In this document: positions 2,367-8,249 of the stretch, piece by piece
Numbering within the stretch: position 1 is the stretch's first letter
How the letters are laid out: each line of letters opens with the position of its first letter
Origin: Acidobacteriota bacterium
GTDB taxonomy: Bacteria > Acidobacteriota > UBA890 > WLXD01
Assembly (NCBI GenBank): GCA_022571615.1
Contig: JACZXM010000108.1
Span: 1 to 8,249 of the forward strand
DNA length: 8,249 nt
Direction: 5' to 3'
The notes under the pieces: generated by a model
Database searches by the model: none
Seen by the model: the letters and a program-made list of their open reading frames with translations, nothing else
Told to the model about the DNA's origin: nothing
Made by a program: the position numbers and the translations under genes

Positions 2367-4001
2367 TCAGGAGATCTGGATCGGGCGCCGGGCGGAGAGC
2401 TGGGCGTAGAAGTCGTTGCCCTTGTCGTCGATGACGATGAAGGCCGGGAAGTCCTCGACCTTGATGCGCCAGATCGCCTCCATGCCGAGATCCTCGTACT
2501 CGAGCACCTCCACACGCTTGATGCAATCCGCCAGTCGGGCAGCCGGGCCGCCGATCGAGCCCAAGTAGAACCCCCCGTACTGGGCGCAGGCCTGGCGCAC
2601 GGCGTCGGAACGATGGCCTTTGGCCAACATCACCAGGCTGCCCCCGAGCGACTGGAATAGCTCGACGTAGGGATCCATGCGCCCAGCAGTCGTCGGTCCG
2701 AATGAGCCCGAGATGTAGCCTTCCGGGGTCTTGGCCGGACCTGCGTAATAGACCGGATGGTCCTTGAGGCACTCCGGTAGCCCTTCGCCGCGATCCACCC
2801 TTTCCTTCAGGCGCGCGTGGGCGAGATCGCGTGCCACCACCAGCGAGCCGGTCAAGGACAGGCGCGTTGCGACCGGGTGCCGTGACAGCTGCTCGCGGAT
2901 CTCGCGCATCGGACGGTTGAGATCGATCTGTACCACCTCGCCCCCGAGCTGATCGTGCGTCACCTCGGGAAGGTACCGGGCTGGATCGGTCTCGAGTTGC
3001 TCGAGAAACACCCCCTCGGCGGTGATCTTGGCGAGCGCCTGGCGGTCGGCCGAGCAGGATACTCCGAGCCCGATCGGGCACGAGGCACCGTGACGCGGCA
3101 GCCGGATCACCCGCACGTCGTGGGCGAAGTACTTGCCGCCGAACTGCGCCCCGACTCCGATGTTCTGGCACAGCTCGAAGACCTGCGCCTCGAGCTCGGT
3201 GTCGCGGAATGCGCGTCCTCCCTCGTTGCCCTCACGCGGCAGCTCATCCAGGTAGTGGGTCGAGGCCAGTTTGACGGTCTTGAGGGTCATTTCCGCCGAG
3301 GTGCCGCCGATCACCAGCACCAGGTGGTAGGGCGGACAGGCCGAGGTACCCATCGAGATCAGCTTGTCCTCGATGAACGGCAGCAAGGTGGCGGGATTGA
3401 GCAGCGCTCTGGTCTCCTGATACAGGAAGGTCTTGTTGGCCGACCCGCCACCTTTGGCGATGAACAGGAACCGGTACTCGTCTCCCGAGACCGCGTGCAG
3501 ATCGATCTGAGCCGGCAGATTGGTCCCGGTGTTTTTCTCCGTGTACATGTCCAGCGGGGCGAGCTGGGAGTAGCGCAGGGCATAGTCACGGTAGGCCTCG
3601 TAAATCCCCTCCGAGAGCGCCTCGCTATCGTCGGCGAACGTGAACACGTTCTCGCCCTTGGATCCCAGAACGATCGCAGTGCCGGTGTCCTGGCATCCCG
3701 GTAACACCCCGCCCGAGGCGATCACCGCGTTGCACAACAGCTCGTAGGCGACGTAGCGATCGTTGTCGGAGGCCTCGGGATCGTCGAAGATCTTGCGAAG
3801 CTGCTCCAGGTGCTCCGACCGCAGCAGGTACTCGATGTCGTGGATCGCCTCGCGCGCCAGGAGCCTGAGGGCCTCGGGCTCGATCTTGAGCACCGTCCGA
3901 CCCTCGAATCGGGTGGTCGAGACATGCTCGGAGGTGAGTTGCCGGTACGAGGTCGTGTCGTCACCGAGCTCGAACATCTTCTGGTACCGAAAACCGCTCA
4001 T
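2367..4001 (-). CDS. fumA: Class I (Fe-S dependent) fumarate hydratase
   Basis: A 544-aa single-chain class I fumarase, matching the length of the FumA/FumB type (about 548 aa). It converts fumarate and malate reversibly in the citric acid cycle, in the cytoplasm, using an oxygen-sensitive [4Fe-4S] cluster. The three expected cluster cysteines are present: C103 in [10 protein letters not shown]222 in TSACPPYH and C316 in [10 protein letters not shown], spaced as in E. coli FumA (105/224/318). Other family blocks are AKGGGSANK (183-190), [10 protein letters not shown] (232-241), [20 protein letters not shown] (about 286-305) and, in the C-terminal domain, [15 protein letters not shown]. The start ATG at 4001 has AAGGGA about 8 bases upstream. 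It is the first gene of a likely fumarase-amidohydrolase unit and lies next to the left end of the accessory module. The family is certain; related activity on similar dicarboxylates such as mesaconate cannot be excluded. Confidence 0.96.
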
Positions 4002-4087
4002 GGCACCCGTCCCTTCGTTGGTCGACTGCCTTCAAGATAGCGGAAAAACGACCCGCCGAACGCCGCGCACGTGAGTGAAGGCGTAGT

Positions 4088-4106
4088 GCATGAGCTTGCT
4101 GCCTTT
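4088..4106 (+). repeat. Direct repeat, left copy
   Basis: GCATGAGCTTGCTGCCTTT, matching 7258-7276 at 18 of 19 positions (one T/C transition), with weaker similarity continuing for about 15 more bases. The two copies are 3170 bp apart and enclose all the mercury and selenoprotein genes. The left copy lies upstream of the fumarase start. Adjacent bases 4098-4116 can form a 6-bp hairpin (GCTGCC, 7-nt loop, GGCAGC) that the right copy does not share. The best reading is an attachment-site-like or target duplication bounding an inserted module. Confidence 0.55.
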
Positions 4107-4150
4107 AGTTGGCAGCCCGTGGCAGAAGTGGTGTGGGTCGCGTTGTCAAT

Positions 4151-4428
4151 ATGTCACTGGCAGGTCAGTCTGTGCAAAACCGAACTGACTCAGATTATCC
4201 ACAGTCACCACAGCATATCGGAGAGCACCTCAAGAAACGCCGGCTCGATCTTGGCCTTCTGCAGCGAGAAGTAGCCGAGCAGATGGGCATATCAGCGTGG
4301 ACGGTTCTCAACTGGGAGCTAAGAGAGACAAGACCTGGCCTCCGGGTATGGCCCCCAGTGTTATCAGCTTCCTGGGCCACGACCCAATGCCAGATCCCAC
4401 GAATCCGAGCGTCGCGTCCTTAACTTGA
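4151..4428 (+). pseudogene. XRE-type helix-turn-helix regulator, frameshifted remnant
   Basis: From ATG 4151 the frame gives an XRE/Cro-type DNA-binding segment: YPQSPQHIGEHLKKRRLDLG followed by LLQREVAEQMGISAWTVLNW, a typical opening of small HTH proteins of this type. At about 4350 the expected sequence is lost (WPPVLSASW...). It resumes in another frame as PSVISFLGHDPMPDP, the usual block of this family after the HTH, and ends at TGA 4426-4428. The shift falls at the C5 run 4352-4356, so a 1-base loss or 2-base gain there explains it. Unshifted, the frame ends at TAA 4421-4423. Family members I know usually continue further, so the gene also looks shortened at the 3' end. It sits just inside the left direct repeat, in DNA somewhat less GC-rich than its neighbours, and may be a leftover of the element that brought the module in. 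A sequencing error at the C-run is the alternative. Confidence 0.6.
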
Positions 4429-4476
4429 CAGTACCGCCGCGATAACTCGCAAAGGAACAAGGGAGGGAGAGATTCC

Positions 4477-5112
4477 ATGGAACATCTGGATGTCGACAAG
4501 CTGCGGGAGGAGTTCAACCGCGCCAGCACGTCAGTCAGGGTCGTCTCCGTCTTCTCACCCACCTGACCGGTGTGCCAGTACGGACAAGGTGTTGTCCGAA
4601 GACTCTTCGAGGAATTCGGCGCCGACAATCTGAAAGGTTTTGCTGTCTGGCTCCCGATGATGCGAAACGACAGCGTTGAGCGGGCCCGCGCGGAGGCGGC
4701 ACCCTTCGAAGGCCTGCAGGTGGTCCACGCCTGGGACCCGAAGCGTAAGCTTGGTCATTTGTTCACCAAGACACTGAAACTTCGTTCCACGGTGTGGGAT
4801 TTCTATTTTCTCTATGCATCAGGAGTGCGGTGGGAGGGAAACGAGCCGCCCCGACCGACTTTCTGGATGCATCAACTTCCCTCGGCGTCCGGAGCGGATC
4901 GGGACCTTGTCCTGTACCCCACGAGATTCTCGCGGGAGCTGCTCGCGCTACTTGGTGACGGAGTCGAGCCAAGCCATACGAGCCGTGACGACCTGGGCCT
5001 TGATCTCCATTGGGACGGTCTACTGAACCTGACCAGCGAAAGAGCTGAGTACACTCTCCGAGATGTACGCAATGCCTTCGAGGACTCGAAGACCGAGAGG
5101 CGGCGGATATGA
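4477..5112 (+). CDS. Thioredoxin-like selenoprotein (UxxC), Sec at in-frame UGA
   Basis: ATG 4477 follows a strong GGGAGG ribosome site (4461-4466). The frame runs 29 codons, meets TGA at 4564-4566, and stays open to TGA 5110-5112, giving 211 residues if the first UGA is Sec. Around it the protein reads RVVSVFSPT-U-PVCQYGQGVV: a beta strand, then a U30-P-V-C33 redox motif at the start of a helix, as in thioredoxin folds where C-P-x-C or C-x-x-C is normal. Downstream blocks such as GFAVWLPMM, VHAWDPKRKLG, TVWDFYFLYASGVRW and FWMHQL look like those I recall in Cys-containing thioredoxin-like proteins of metal-related clusters. A perfect hairpin of SECIS type follows the UGA. No signal peptide is visible, so it is probably cytoplasmic. 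Likely role: selenol/thiol redox or metal-thiol exchange within the mercury module. merR starts 9 bp after its stop, suggesting co-transcription. Read conventionally, only a headless frame beginning near GTG 4570 would be annotated. Confidence 0.85.
4564..4598 (+). promoter_or_regulatory. Sec UGA and bacterial SECIS-like hairpin of the thioredoxin-like gene
   Basis: The UGA at 4564-4566 is followed by 14 bases and then CGGACAA-GGTG-TTGTCCG (4581-4598), a perfect 7-bp stem with a 4-nt loop beginning GG. The loop lies 22-25 nt past the UGA. Bacterial SECIS elements recognised by SelB are small stem-loops roughly 16-37 nt after the UGA with a G in the first two loop positions, and this fits. An outer 3-bp stem (AGT 4577-4579 with ACT 4602-4604) is possible across an internal loop. 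Confidence 0.82.
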
Positions 5113-5121
5113 GACCGGGAC

Positions 5122-5562
5122 ATGGAATACCGCATCGGTGAAGCTGCTCGGACCGTGGGGCTGAGTGTGGAGGGGCTGCGTTTCTATGAACGCCGTGGAT
5201 TAGTCCGTCCGGCGCGGCGAACAATCTCCGGCTATCGGCTGTATGGCCAGCGCCAGGTCGATTCGCTGCGATTCATCCGCGCCGCTCAGGAGATGGGTTT
5301 CTCGCTACGTGAGATCCGGGACCTGCTCACGCTTCGTGACGGCACCGGCGCGGACGAGAGTTGTCGTTCGATGCGCGGCCGGCTGAACCACAAGTTGGAC
5401 ACGGTCCGACGCCGCCTCGAGCTCTTGCGCGAGTTCGAGCGCGACCTTGTCGCCTGCATCGAGCGCTGCGATGCGCAGATCGACACCGGCGATGCCGCTT
5501 GCTGCCCTGTCCTCGAGGACTTGGGCTCGAAGCTGACAATGGCGTCCCGGCCCAGCGATTAG
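5122..5562 (+). CDS. merR: MerR-family metal-sensing regulator
   Basis: A 146-aa MerR-family protein. The N-terminal winged helix is complete: YRIGEAARTVGLSVEGLRFY, ERRGLVRPARRTISGYRLYG, then the dimer helix from about residue 80 to 112. The metal-binding cysteines point to Hg(II) sensing: C81 and C116 are 35 residues apart, as C82 and C117 are in classical MerR, with C127/C128 near the place of C126; C112 is an additional cysteine. It binds and twists an over-long promoter spacer to activate transcription when metal is bound. The likely target is the operator-promoter at 7204-7235 controlling the convergent operon. The gene starts 9 bp after the selenoprotein stop with only a weak ribosome site, so translation is probably coupled to that gene. 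Sensing of another soft metal (Zn, Cd, Pb) is possible because the operator spacing is 20 bp rather than the 19 bp classical for mer. Confidence 0.85.
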   Translation: MEYRIGEAARTVGLSVEGLRFYERRGLVRPARRTISGYRLYGQRQVDSLRFIRAAQEMGFSLREIRDLLTLRDGTGADESCRSMRGRLNHKLDTVRRRLELLREFERDLVACIERCDAQIDTGDAACCPVLEDLGSKLTMASRPSD

Positions 5563-5698
5563 GCCGGACGGGCAGAACCAGACCTCCTCCTCAAGTTCGC
5601 CGACAAGCTCTTTGGTGGTTTCGCGCAGGCTAGGTTGACTCCGCACCTATAGCTGTCGTCGGCGCAGTCTGTGGCCGGCCAGGGAACCGACGCGATAC
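5563..5698. other. Intergenic stretch between convergent merR and merT, with a mer-operator-like half site
   Basis: These 136 bp separate merR and merT. TTGACTCCGCAC at 5635-5646 (plus strand) matches the left half of the classical mer operator (TTGACTCCGTAC) at 11 of 12 positions, but no second half or -10 box follows. A 10-bp palindrome TGGCCGGCCA lies at 5672-5681. I see no convincing terminator and no gene. Confidence 0.35.
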
Positions 5699-6082
5699 TT
5701 ACATCGGTATCGATTGCATGAGCGCGGCGGTCCACGACGGAAACAGCTTCAGCAGCAAGGCGGCGATCACCACGACGGTCGCAATGCCGAGGAGCACCTG
5801 GTTGAGTCGTCGACCGACGAACTGGCAGGCTTCGGTCTCGCAGCGCCGCTTGCGCCGGAAGTAGATCCACCAGGCGCCGGCGAGGCCGAAGACGCCGAGC
5901 GGCAGGGTGATCCACTCGTACTGCATCATCGTCATCATGAGGCCAGCGCCGGCAACGCCCGCGAACATCAGTGCGAGAGGCAGGATGCAGCATGTCGCGG
6001 CCAGAAGCGCCGCGATTAACCCGGTTGCCCCGGACGCCCGCATGGCAGACGAGGCCCGCGGTATCGATGGTCGTGTGTTCAT
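5699..6082 (-). CDS. merT: MerT mercuric ion transporter
   Basis: A 127-aa inner-membrane protein with three hydrophobic segments (about 20-48, 56-76, 93-113). The vicinal pair C31-C32 in LLAATCCILPLAL is the diagnostic MerT site in the first membrane helix, and C81 and C86 (RRCETEACQ) in the cytoplasmic loop are the second pair. MerT takes Hg(II) from periplasmic MerP and hands it to cytoplasmic thiols. ATG 6082 is chosen over TTG 6088 because GAGGA lies 7 bases before ATG. It is the last gene of the minus-strand operon, 45 bp after merP, and converges on merR. All four cysteines are kept as Cys, in contrast to its MerP partner. Confidence 0.93.
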   Translation of the reverse strand: MNTRPSIPRASSAMRASGATGLIAALLAATCCILPLALMFAGVAGAGLMMTMMQYEWITLPLGVFGLAGAWWIYFRRKRRCETEACQFVGRRLNQVLLGIATVVVIAALLLKLFPSWTAALMQSIPM

Positions 6083-6127
6083 CTTCAAGTCCTCAGCGAA
6101 AGTGGCTCTGGAGGCGTGAAGGGAGGT

Positions 6128-6481
6128 CTACTCGTCGTCGCTGTTGGCTTCGATCAGCGAGGCGCCGAACCCGGTTGCAACGATCGCCTCGACCATCTGC
6201 TCCGGCGTGACCTGATCCGCGACATACCTGACCTGGGCGAGTTTGGCGTCGTACGACACCTCGGCCTCCACGACACCCTCGATCCCCGTCAATTCCTGGC
6301 GCACGGCCAGGGCGCAGGCGCCTCACGTCATGCCTTCGATGCGCAGGCTCACCAACTGGGTATTCGCGACCTGCTCGGCTGACGCTGGCTCCCGCTCCGC
6401 AGCACCGCCACATCCTACTCCCAGCGCCGCGCCAGCGACGATCCCGAGCGCTAGCGCACCTCTCAACCACCCGTTTGTCAC
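6128..6481 (-). CDS. merP: MerP-like heavy-metal-binding selenoprotein, Sec in the metal site
   Basis: The frame starts at GTG 6481-6479, which overlaps the preceding stop as GTGA, and reads to TAG 6130-6128 through one in-frame TGA at 6325-6323: 117 residues with Sec at position 53. Residues 42-115 form a heavy-metal-associated (HMA) domain: LVSLRIEGMT-U-GAC, then ALAVRQELTGIEGVVEAEVS, with the family ending TPEQMVEAIVATGFGASL. The usual GMTCxxC metal site is here GMT-U53-G-A-C56. The N-terminus has a hydrophobic signal (about 6-22) ending LGVGC, a plausible but imperfect lipobox (C24), so it is periplasmic, perhaps membrane-anchored. MerP-type proteins bind Hg(II) and pass it to MerT, which is the next gene. 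A hairpin of SECIS type follows the UGA. If the UGA were a stop, the protein would end just before its metal ligands, and the well-conserved 64 residues behind it would be unexplained. Confidence 0.88.
6295..6325 (-). promoter_or_regulatory. Sec UGA and bacterial SECIS-like hairpin of merP
   Basis: On the minus strand the TGA at 6325-6323 is followed by 11 bases and then CCTGGC-CGTGC-GCCAGG (6311-6295), a perfect 6-bp stem with a 5-nt loop. The loop begins 18 nt after the UGA and has G at its second position. It matches the bacterial SECIS pattern in distance, stem length and loop rule, and lies wholly in the coding sequence, as these elements do. Confidence 0.78.
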
Positions 6482-6972
6482 GTTACAATCTCCGCGAGCC
6501 CGTCGCGGATCATCGCGACGGCCTTGTTGACCTCGCCGAGACAACAACGCCCGGCTGGATTACGTACCTCGCAGGCGCAGTTACCCGCTTTGATCTCCGC
6601 GGTGATCCGCTGTGGCACGGTAGTTTCGCCGTTGGCCCGCAGCTCCTGCTCGATCTCACCGCGCGAGTGCATGAAGCAGTAGCACACGAGCCCCTCGGCG
6701 CCCGGGGTCTTGAACCCGGGCACGACGTGCATATCGCCGATGCTGAACAGGGCGCCCTGGCCGCCGTGATAGACGGTCTCGCACTCCGCTTGCCGGCACA
6801 GCCAGAAGTTCTGCTTCGGCGCCAGATGGCCTCGGGTCATCGCCGCGACGGTCTGCGGGTCGACGGTCGGACCGTCGCTGCCGCACGTCGGACACACCTG
6901 AGGCTTGGCCGCCGACTCCGCTACTGCGCACTGATCCTCGGTGTCCGAGGTTGGGCAACAGGATTCGCTCAT
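6478..6972 (-). CDS. CopZ-N-like Cys-rich zinc/[2Fe-2S] protein
   Basis: A 164-aa soluble protein with 13 cysteines. The pattern is that of the N-terminal domain of Archaeoglobus-type CopZ: CPTCGSDG (C27, C30) with VDPQTVAAMTRGHL, then FWLCRQAEC (C59, C64) for a Zn-type site, then VCYCF (C97, C99) and NCACEVRNPAGRCC (C132, C134, C143, C144) for a [2Fe-2S]-type site. The HMA domain that CopZ carries in the same chain is absent here; instead an HMA protein, MerP, is encoded by the next gene, with translation coupled through GTGA. Likely role: a cytoplasmic metal-binding or electron-transfer partner of the metal relay; this is inference. The extra CC at 5-6 and C15 form a flexible Cys-bearing tail. 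GGAGGT (6983-6978) lies 5 bases before ATG 6972. Transcribed from the promoter at 7204-7235. Confidence 0.82.
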   Translation of the reverse strand: MSESCCPTSDTEDQCAVAESAAKPQVCPTCGSDGPTVDPQTVAAMTRGHLAPKQNFWLCRQAECETVYHGGQGALFSIGDMHVVPGFKTPGAEGLVCYCFMHSRGEIEQELRANGETTVPQRITAEIKAGNCACEVRNPAGRCCLGEVNKAVAMIRDGLAEIVT

Positions 6973-6975
6973 CCA

Positions 6976-7167
6976 CTACCTCCGATATACGGCGAAAGCA
7001 AGCAACGCCCCAGCGACGATCAGGCCCGCGAAAATTGGTGTTCCGCGGCCGAACAGCACCGAAAAGCCGACCACCCCGACTCCTCCGGCCGTCCACGCGG
7101 CCCGCGCGTGACCCTGCCAGGACGCGACCCGTGTCAGGGCTGCGATGAAGAACCCCAAGAGGGGCAT
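6976..7167 (-). CDS. Small membrane protein heading the mercury operon
   Basis: A 63-aa hydrophobic protein that I do not recognise. Two membrane segments are clear (about 26-42 and 45-60), with a further hydrophobic N-terminus (MPLLGFFIAALTRV) and an ending of FAVYRR. It has no Cys, His-rich site or other metal motif, so it is not MerC, MerE or MerF. It starts about 37 bases after the -10 of the MerR-type promoter and ends 3 bp before the CopZ-like gene, so it is the first gene of the operon. The start is uncertain: TTG 7170 directly precedes ATG 7167, and no good ribosome site is visible. It may be a transport accessory subunit or a degenerate remnant of a longer membrane protein. Confidence 0.6.
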   Translation of the reverse strand: MPLLGFFIAALTRVASWQGHARAAWTAGGVGVVGFSVLFGRGTPIFAGLIVAGALLAFAVYRR

Positions 7168-7203
7168 CAACGTGAGTGTCGTGATGTCGAGCCCTCTGGG
7201 TCG

Positions 7204-7235
7204 ATCGTAGACCCTGTACGTTAGTGTAGAGTCAA
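7204..7235 (-). promoter_or_regulatory. MerR-type operator-promoter of the mercury operon
   Basis: On the minus strand TTGACT (-35, 7235-7230) and TACGAT (-10, 7209-7204) are separated by 20 bp, the over-long spacer typical of promoters activated by MerR-family proteins. The spacer is a dyad: GACTCTACAC, 4 bp, GTACAGGGTC, with 7 of 10 positions symmetric, and outer arms (GACTCT/AGGGTC) as in such operators. It drives the 63-aa protein, the CopZ-like gene, merP and merT. The regulator is most likely the MerR encoded at 5122-5562. Confidence 0.8.
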
Positions 7236-7255
7236 GCCCTGATTAAATCAGCTTG
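7233..7255 (-). terminator. Hairpin between the phosphatase gene and the mercury promoter
   Basis: CTGATT-A-AATCAG (7239-7251) is a perfect inverted repeat. On the minus strand it extends with CAAGC and GCTTG around a GG bulge to about 10 bp. No T-run follows, so it is a poor intrinsic terminator. It overlaps the edge of the -35 box and could instead be a regulator site or an AT-rich upstream element. Confidence 0.35.
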
Positions 7256-7257
7256 AG

Positions 7258-7276
7258 GCATGAGCTTGCCGCCTTT
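7258..7276 (+). repeat. Direct repeat, right copy
   Basis: GCATGAGCTTGCCGCCTTT, pairing with 4088-4106. It lies just downstream of the phosphatase stop codon (minus-strand TAG at 7281-7279), the kind of position at a gene's 3' edge that integrating elements often use. Similarity continues, with gaps, into AGCCC(A/G)TG. Confidence 0.55.
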
Positions 7277-7278
7277 GG

Positions 7279-8085
7279 CTAGCCCATGTTCTGGCCGCGG
7301 CGAATCACCAGCAGGGTCTCGTCGTCACACTGATCCCGGCCACCGCGGAATGCCGCCACGGCCGACAAGGCCGCCGCGGCGAGGCCCGGTGCATCGAGCG
7401 AAGTCCATCGCGCCGCCGCCTCGCGTAGACCCTCGACTCCCAGCTCGTTGCCACGTGAGTCGGTGCTCTCGATGAGGCCGTCGGTGTAGAGCAGAAGCGA
7501 TTCGCTGGGCATCATGTGCAACCTCCGCGTCGCGTATTGCGAGCGAGCAAACAGGCCCGCGGGCAGACCGGTAGCGTCGATCGTCTCCACCCCGGCCACG
7601 CCGACGAGCAGCGGCGGAACGTGACCGGCATTGACGAGCTCCACCTCACCGTCCGGCCGGGCGACACCGGCGACGAGCGTCACATAACGGCGCGAATCGG
7701 TCCGTTTCACCAGCTCGGAATTGATCCGCGTCATCAGGGCATCGAGCGGCAGCCCCGAGCCCAACAGGCTGCGGTAGGTCGCCCCGAGGTGGGCCATGAG
7801 CAGAGCCGCAGACACTCCCTTGCCCGAAACATCGCCGAGCAGGAAGTGCAGGGATCCGCTCTGGTCGCAGACGATGTCGACGACGTCGCCGCTCACGGGC
7901 CCGGCTGGCAGATATCGGTAGTGGCTGCGCCACCCCGGCACGCCGAGATCCTGCGAGGGGAGAAGACCTGCCTGGACGCTCCAGGCGAGCTCCAGGTCCC
8001 GCTCCAGGGCTAGCGTGGGATTTTCGCCAGGCCGGTGAAACGGGGCCATGAACACGCCAAATTTCATTCGCTTTGGGGCTGCCAT
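7279..8085 (-). CDS. SpoIIE/PP2C-type phosphatase with luciferase-monooxygenase-like N-terminus (chimera)
   Basis: A 268-aa protein. Residues 34-263 are a complete PPM/SpoIIE-type serine phosphatase domain of the RsbU kind: SVQAGLLPS, PAGPVSGD (D67), LLGDVSGKGVSAALLMAHL (D85), RYVTLVAGV, NAGHVPPLL, LLYTDGLIEST (D202) and DDETLLVIRR (D254/D255), with the metal-binding Asp residues in place. It should dephosphorylate an anti-sigma-factor antagonist or similar target. Residues 7-33 (MKFGVFMAPFHRPGENP then TLALERDLEL) instead match the start of luciferase-like flavin monooxygenases. The usual sensor domain (PAS, GAF, response receiver) is missing. The join falls in ERDLELA, which suits both families, so recombination at short homology is a natural explanation. 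The start is well supported: GAGGAG 6 bases before ATG 8085. Whether it is still active without its sensor is unknown. Confidence 0.85.
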   Translation of the reverse strand: MAAPKRMKFGVFMAPFHRPGENPTLALERDLELAWSVQAGLLPSQDLGVPGWRSHYRYLPAGPVSGDVVDIVCDQSGSLHFLLGDVSGKGVSAALLMAHLGATYRSLLGSGLPLDALMTRINSELVKRTDSRRYVTLVAGVARPDGEVELVNAGHVPPLLVGVAGVETIDATGLPAGLFARSQYATRRLHMMPSESLLLYTDGLIESTDSRGNELGVEGLREAAARWTSLDAPGLAAAALSAVAAFRGGRDQCDDETLLVIRRGQNMG

Positions 8086-8191
8086 AATTATCTCCTCAGT
8101 TACTCGATCTGGAGGGCTGTCGGAGAGGCGATCCTGTCATTCCCAGGGCCACGTCTACTCTCGGTAAAGTGAAGGCACTCTGTGTTGGCCC

Positions 8192-8221
8192 ATTCTAACA
8201 CGGGGCAGTTGTTTCATCCAA
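8192..8221 (-). promoter_or_regulatory. Possible extended -10 promoter for the phosphatase gene
   Basis: On the minus strand TG-T-TAGAAT (8200-8192) is an extended -10 box with five of six consensus bases, with a weak -35-like TTGGAT (8221-8216) 18 bp before it. It lies about 107 bp upstream of ATG 8085. Confidence 0.4.
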
Positions 8222-8227
8222 TGAAAC
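8211..8227. repeat. Perfect palindrome, probable operator
   Basis: GTTTCAT-CCA-ATGAAAC, a perfect 7-bp inverted repeat around 3 bp. It covers the -35 region of the possible promoter, so it looks like a binding site for a dimeric regulator. The regulator is not in the window. The remaining sequence at 8086-8249 holds no gene that I can support. Confidence 0.5.
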
Positions 8228-8249
8228 CTGCCATTAGCTGAGGAGCTGG

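Follow-up and report, generated by a model that had tools for sequence, protein, structure and literature searches.

A MerP-like protein and a thioredoxin-like protein as predicted selenoproteins of one mer-like gene cluster in an Acidobacteriota genome

Results

An in-frame UGA at the first metal-binding position of a MerP-like protein

We analyzed an 8,249-nucleotide stretch of DNA from an Acidobacteriota bacterium (positions 1 to 8,249 of contig JACZXM010000108.1, assembly GCA_022571615.1; hereafter the window), in which a mer-like gene cluster contains a merP-like frame interrupted by a single UGA. This UGA very likely encodes selenocysteine (Sec) at the first metal ligand of the HMA domain. 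A second UGA, in a thioredoxin-like frame of the same window, also likely encodes Sec, and the two products probably act together on Hg(II) or a comparable metal; we give this combined reading a probability of about 0.65. We read the two genes as a module because both UGAs occupy codons that specify Cys in relatives, conserved coding sequence and hairpins resembling a selenocysteine insertion sequence (SECIS) follow them, Sec genes are present, the surrounding cluster is mer-like, and HMA and thioredoxin-like domains are fused in other genomes.

The MerP-like frame (6128-6481, minus strand) begins at a GTG codon and, when TGA is translated as U, encodes a predicted secreted selenoprotein of 117 residues, an assignment based on this translation, the Pfam HMA match and UGA-containing homologues. 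The original prediction, made from the letters of the window, had placed a single in-frame UGA exactly at the first Cys of the HMA motif. This was confirmed: the TGA at 6323-6325 (minus strand), read here as a predicted Sec codon for the first metal ligand, is residue 53 and the sole internal stop, within GMT-U-GAC. The frame continues for 64 residues beyond it, as had been stated, and the HMA model (PF00403) covers residues 46-105 with 55.9 bits, above the Pfam cut-off of 24.8. The proposed coupling to the preceding gene was also found, with the GTG start (6479-6481) sharing GTGA with the TGA stop of a CopZ-like gene (6478-6972, minus strand) and GGAG lying upstream. A lipobox-like LGVGC was recognized by eye. 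Ordinary gene calling had been expected to cut or lose the gene; both UGA genes of the window do end at their UGA in the program-made frame list, which retains only remnants of 58 and 180 amino acids after the two codons.

The relatives of known structure, by sequence, are MerP, mercuric reductase and domains of copper ATPases or chaperones, whose GMTCxxC we take to be metal-binding. The first Cys is the exposed one in HMA motifs. The identification as MerP held only in part: the protein has an HMA domain and is MerP-like, but its score against the NCBI MerP equivalog TIGR02052 (50.2 bits) does not reach the cut-off of 92.55. Its top NCBIfam model, UxxU_metal_bind (NF041115), also stays below the cut-off (79.1 bits versus 95), and the UGAC motif has one Sec.

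The same codon is UGA in other genomes of the phylum

A first search of 60 genomes (the host, labelled G000, and relatives) showed this codon to be UGA also in G007, of the same order, and G001, of the same family. The alignment of these UGA frames was then run against 396 genomes from the phylum, the host included here and in all counts of UGA merP genomes. Matches at E 1e-9 were obtained in 145 of the 396, most of those listed having no internal stop. In at least 11 genomes (G000, G001, G007, G079, G316, G217, G225, G354, G284, G095 and G115), UGA stands at the first HMA Cys and the second position is invariably Cys; this count is a lower bound because only the matches listed were inspected. 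All 21 listed matches with one TGA were accounted for, 11 genomes having it at the first Cys and 10 matches having a CxxC motif with the TGA elsewhere. For matches containing TAA or TAG, a motif scan of the loci of G017, G119 and G032 showed no stop at the motif; G254, G227 and G288 were left out of this check.

As had been anticipated, Cys-containing homologues align their Cys with U53. We compared 71 distinct HMA-like frames from the loci read, a set that leaves out 12 pattern-scan loci and is enriched for UGA because UGA matches were chosen for retrieval; the first Cys codon was TGC in 41, TGT in 17 and TGA in 13. The 13 comprise the 11 UGA merP genomes, one UxxU frame of G095 and one hit in locus L142 judged spurious; the second Cys codon was TGA once, in the same UxxU frame. 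The codon is UGA in at least 11 genomes and Cys in others, the pattern of a predicted bacterial selenoprotein. As a separate observation, the G095 frame with UGA at both positions (locus L117, GMI-U-GL-U) shares its contig with the UxxC merP and a MerA above the cut-off, placing predicted single- and double-Sec HMA forms on one contig.

Other searches added little. A motif scan of a contig collection for codons of [IVM][KEDN]-GMT-U-[GA]C returned 12 stretches, none inside an HMA frame, in a collection from which records close to the host genome may be missing. A protein search with query P0001 gave one match, a Cys form, and one with A4 was uninformative, the 120 listed of 4464 matches being, where named, largely of copper-ion-binding and P-type-ATPase type.

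Coding is conserved past the UGA and a hairpin follows it

In the five nearest genomes (G000, G001, G007, G079 and G316), third codon positions after the UGA were the most variable in all 10 pairwise comparisons. Four codons, those for Leu (+5), Ala (+6), Val (+7) and Gln (+9), are invariant in these genomes and all lie within a predicted SECIS-like hairpin, CCUGGC-CGUGC-GCCAGG (6295-6311, minus strand), which starts 11 nt past the merP UGA; of the 14 remaining codons whose residue is common to the five, 11 vary.

Hairpins were scored in all four frame groups by one rule, a stem of at least 4 pairs with a G among the first two loop bases. This wider rule was picked after the misses of a stricter one, requiring GU near the loop start, were known (12/22 thioredoxin-like UGA frames and 1/10 MerP frames). 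Under the stricter rule, 9/10 MerP frames had a hairpin, with single-sequence p values of 0.02-0.18 for those nine. Under the wider rule all 11 MerP-UGA frames had one, 10 of them at -6 kcal/mol or better. Their mean energy was -8.5 kcal/mol compared to -4.1 in 1000 synonymous recodings (z -4.4), although z values here are overstated because the sequences are related, which counts against our reading. We predict, as a group effect, a SECIS-like hairpin with an apical-loop G just after the UGA.

A second UGA lies in a thioredoxin-like frame

The window holds a second UGA candidate, absent from the original prediction, in a thioredoxin-like frame at 4477-5112 (plus strand). Its predicted product is a selenoprotein of 211 amino acids with the motif SPT-U-PVC, its Sec codon is predicted at 4564-4566 (plus strand), and a SECIS-like hairpin, CGGACAA-GGUG-UUGUCCG (4581-4598, plus strand), follows 14 nt past the UGA. 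With the window included, the codon is UGA at 22 of the 30 loci read and Cys at 8. Members of the family occur in 47/396 genomes searched. The predicted fold is thioredoxin-like, with UxxC ahead of the first long helix, and the structural matches shown have 6-18% identity. Pfam gave no match at E 0.001, NCBIfam none that was convincing at E 1, and the family (SPT-U-xxC) may be undescribed. No signal peptide was seen in the window protein; several relatives start with signal-like stretches, as judged by eye.

Domain fusions connect the two families. In G047, a single 303-residue protein encoded between MerT-like and CopZ-like genes joins an HMA domain (GMTCGSC) to a thioredoxin-like domain (SPTCGIC). 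Its homologues number 195 proteins, of which 120 were listed, itself included, and sorted by motif pattern: both motifs are present in 100, and of the remaining 20, 17 have just the thioredoxin motif, 2 have just the HMA motif and 1 lacks both. MerT stands in front in 5 of the 100 with both, and one of the 17 is a MerT-thioredoxin fusion. Among the homologues listed, two fusions and one thioredoxin-only protein have names from Thermoanaerobaculia (Acidobacteriota). Both domain orders occur with Sec predicted in the thioredoxin part, as HMA(Cys)-Trx(UGA) in G218 and Trx(UGA)-HMA(Cys) in G073, each a single frame apart from the UGA. A MerT-like neighbor was found at 6/30 thioredoxin loci (flanks up to 1.5 kb), window and G047 included.

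Selenocysteine machinery

The original prediction depended on a host with selB and selC. The draft genome to which the window belongs, as contig 113, spans 3.2 Mb in 527 contigs and is 71% complete; it contains SelB (339 bits), SelA (536) and SelD (319), all above NCBI cut-offs, and a tRNA-Sec (68 bits versus a gathering score of 47; tRNA-SeC with anticodon tca by ARAGORN). Further UGA homologues had been expected in Sec-decoding genomes, and this was borne out: tRNA-Sec exceeded the gathering score in 10/11 UGA merP genomes, and SelB exceeded its cut-off in 8 of the 10 tested (G115 being outside the ten). tRNA-Sec was also found in 18/22 genomes with a UGA-containing thioredoxin-like gene. 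Neither tRNA-Sec nor SelB above the cut-off was found in G041, G304, G296, G387 and G109, where the HMA matches have no internal stop.

The surrounding mer-like cluster

On the minus strand, genes for a 64-residue membrane-like protein (6976-7170, no Pfam match), the CopZ-like protein, MerP(UGA) and a MerT-like protein follow one another in that order. The CopZ-like gene encodes 164 amino acids with the features of an iron-sulfur-type metallochaperone (zf_CopZ plus BFD-like) and no HMA domain of its own (NF047645, 106.2 bits, cut-off 100; PF18423, 42 bits, cut-off 28.4). The original prediction had named merT as the next gene, and a MerT-like membrane protein with a Cys-Cys pair near its N-terminus is indeed encoded there (5699-6088, minus strand), but it falls below the cut-offs (PF02411, 29.5 versus 32.9 bits; NF010314, 36.8 versus 150). 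A MerR-family regulator (5122-5562, plus strand) retains Cys at the three positions that align with Cys of chain 4ua1_A, which are presumably Hg ligands. Its best NCBIfam model is MerR (106 bits), above the ZntR and CueR models, all of them below cut-off. A candidate MerR-type promoter with a long spacer, TTGACT-N20-TACGAT, lies at 7204-7235 (minus strand); it is the one site in 4000-8249, compared to 0.02 expected per window from base shuffles, and three such sites occur at the G007 locus.

MerR, CopZ-like, merP(UGA) and MerT-like genes are clustered in G000, G001 and G007. Elsewhere, a MerT-like gene follows the UGA merP in G079, a CopZ-like gene neighbors it in G217, and a MerR-family gene is nearby in G316 and G284. 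The G095 contig carries the UGA merP with MerR, MerT-like, further MerP-like and CopZ-like genes, and a MerA above the cut-off about 10.6 kb from the UGA merP. No neighbor match was obtained in the stretches read for G225 (3.1 kb) and G354 (11 kb), the search in G354 having low sensitivity because its own merP was also unmatched.

FAD reductases beside merP-like genes in L113 (G217), L099 (G316) and L100 (G376) were considered as MerA and rejected, being below the cut-off and lacking a C-terminal Cys pair; they do carry a MerA-like GGTCAxRGCDPKK. At locus L032 of G007 (7303-8523, plus strand), the CopZ-like gene and the UGA merP form one continuous frame up to the UGA, a possible CopZ-MerP fusion. 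Locus L098 of G079, one of the UGA merP genomes, contains near position 13585 (minus strand) a DUF411-resembling frame, presumably for a metal protein, with UGA at SPT-U-GCC, making it a candidate selenoprotein gene. Upstream of the cluster in the window, a 268-residue protein (7279-8085, minus strand), which we take to be a PP2C-type phosphatase, has sub-cut-off matches to RssB and SpoIIE models.

Discussion

The Sec reading of the merP UGA is strongly supported as a prediction, and the cluster suggests how the two proteins might work together. On sensing the metal, MerR would open the promoter with the long spacer (7204-7235). After export, the MerP-like protein would capture the metal Sec-first through its selenolate and pass it to the MerT-like transporter, and from there it would reach the cytosolic CopZ-like protein. 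The thioredoxin-like selenoprotein would re-reduce an Se-S (or S-S) bond of the metal sites, or split metal-chalcogen adducts, allowing rebinding. Selenols bind Hg(II) and exchange it faster than thiols, and selenium-mercury antagonism is known mainly from toxicology. A broader proposal, for and against which we see the odds as even, is a two-selenoprotein metal relay in which Sec in a single-Sec UxxC HMA domain would be served by a dedicated thioredoxin-like partner. The partner family would be undescribed, mostly Sec-containing (SPT-U-xxC), and found in fusions with MerT and, in both orders, with MerP-type domains, and Se-Hg exchange would be an encoded form of detoxification across a bacterial phylum.

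Several observations weigh against our reading. Sec at both codons is a prediction from sequence. The MerP-like, MerT-like and MerR-family proteins all score under the curated cut-offs of the mer-type families; no MerA above the cut-off was found in the 71% complete host genome (best match 391 bits versus 454.45), and just 2 of the 17 genomes tested have one. The promoter motif was not found in the stretches scanned at G001, G079 and G316. Taken singly, the MerP-UGA hairpins have p values of 0.03-0.55. The 58 HMA Cys frames also show a hairpin excess (z -2.6), smaller than that of the UGA frames, and plain folding energy after both window UGAs is no better than in shuffles. As to machinery, tRNA-Sec was not found in G115 despite its UGA merP-like frame (97% complete; 103 of 777 candidates scored), nor in G012, G115, G233 and G265 among the genomes with a UGA-containing thioredoxin-like gene, and SelB is below the cut-off in G007 (75% complete) and G316 (93%). 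Because SelB exceeded the cut-off in 35 of 42 tested genomes, among them genomes with Cys forms, co-occurrence with Sec machinery is by itself weak evidence, a consistency check only. With no signal peptide visible, the window thioredoxin-like protein may fail to meet a MerP located in the periplasm and might act on the cytosolic side here.

Alternatively, the two selenoproteins could serve a soft metal other than mercury, such as copper or silver. This would fit the CopZ-like partner, the sole cluster protein above an NCBIfam cut-off and a metallochaperone by name. It would also fit the HMA protein, which scores as well against CopZ models (50.6 and 50.1 bits) as against the MerP model, and the lack of a MerA above the cut-off in the host genome. 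We nevertheless consider this explanation unlikely, given the MerT-like gene adjoining merP(UGA), the preference of the regulator, with its three conserved Cys, for the MerR model, and the MerA on the G095 contig. Another alternative would make the UxxC pair of the MerP-like protein a redox couple, oxidizing or reducing MerT or other thiols, instead of a metal site. Most uncharacterized selenoproteins, many of UxxC type, are likely redox proteins according to PMC13188914, and the HMA domain is fused to a thioredoxin-like domain in relatives; against this, the solved relatives are metal-handling domains of the kinds named above and the cluster contains transporter-like and metallochaperone-like genes, which leaves such a role improbable. 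UGA does act as a stop in most genes, and the draft assembly that supplied the window is fragmented, but a true stop at the merP UGA, whether in a pseudogene, through a truncated product or by sequencing error, is highly improbable given the same codon in 11 genomes, the hairpins in 11/11 frames and the Sec machinery, and pseudogene and error are rejected because coding is conserved downstream in the five nearest genomes.

If the two-selenoprotein reading is correct, a resistance-type cluster would genetically specify Sec as a ligand for the metal, at the site where ligand exchange probably begins, with a likely selenoprotein reductant adjacent. Selenium would then serve to deal with mercury or another toxic metal, and the thioredoxin-like family offers testable partners in 47 genomes.

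Parts of this arrangement have precedents. 'Mercuric transport protein MerP' was reported as a selenoprotein in Global Ocean Sampling data (PMC2398784, 2008), with 2 sequences and 0 Cys homologues counted; MerP as a selenoprotein is the likeness to the window, while the portion of that paper available to us describes no motif, partner genes or thioredoxin-like partner. Table 1 of PMC13188914 includes 'Metal-binding protein (putative mercuric reductase), UxxU', corresponding to UxxU_metal_bind (NF041115), which all 10 members of A4 match at E 0.001. It and the window MerP-like protein are both HMA-type metal-binding proteins, but the window protein has one predicted Sec (UxxC) where NF041115 has two. 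The same table has no row for a single-Sec UxxC lone HMA protein or an SPT-U-xxC thioredoxin, although generic rows ('thiol-disulfide isomerase-like protein, UxxC') could overlap. MerT_CopZ_Se (NF045683), by its name, combines MerT-like and CopZ-like parts in one selenoprotein for heavy-metal transport; in the window these parts are separate genes, reaching 44.6 and 19.1 bits where the cut-off is 375. The Sec-assisted organometallic (SAO) system, compared here through its description in the available part of PMC13188914, likewise places several selenoproteins in one metal locus, including the thioredoxin-like UxxC protein SaoT, but it uses ABC transporter subunits and a MerB-like lyase instead of MerT/MerP-type parts; no Sao model was among the matches listed for the window cluster proteins. 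TlpA/ResA/DsbE-type oxidoreductases share the predicted fold of the thioredoxin-like protein and the UxxC before the first long helix, but identity is only 6-18% and no family model is convincing. A Sec-containing MerP and a UxxU relative are therefore known, and the window MerP-like protein, placed by cut-offs in neither TIGR02052 nor NF041115, is a predicted single-Sec UxxC variant.
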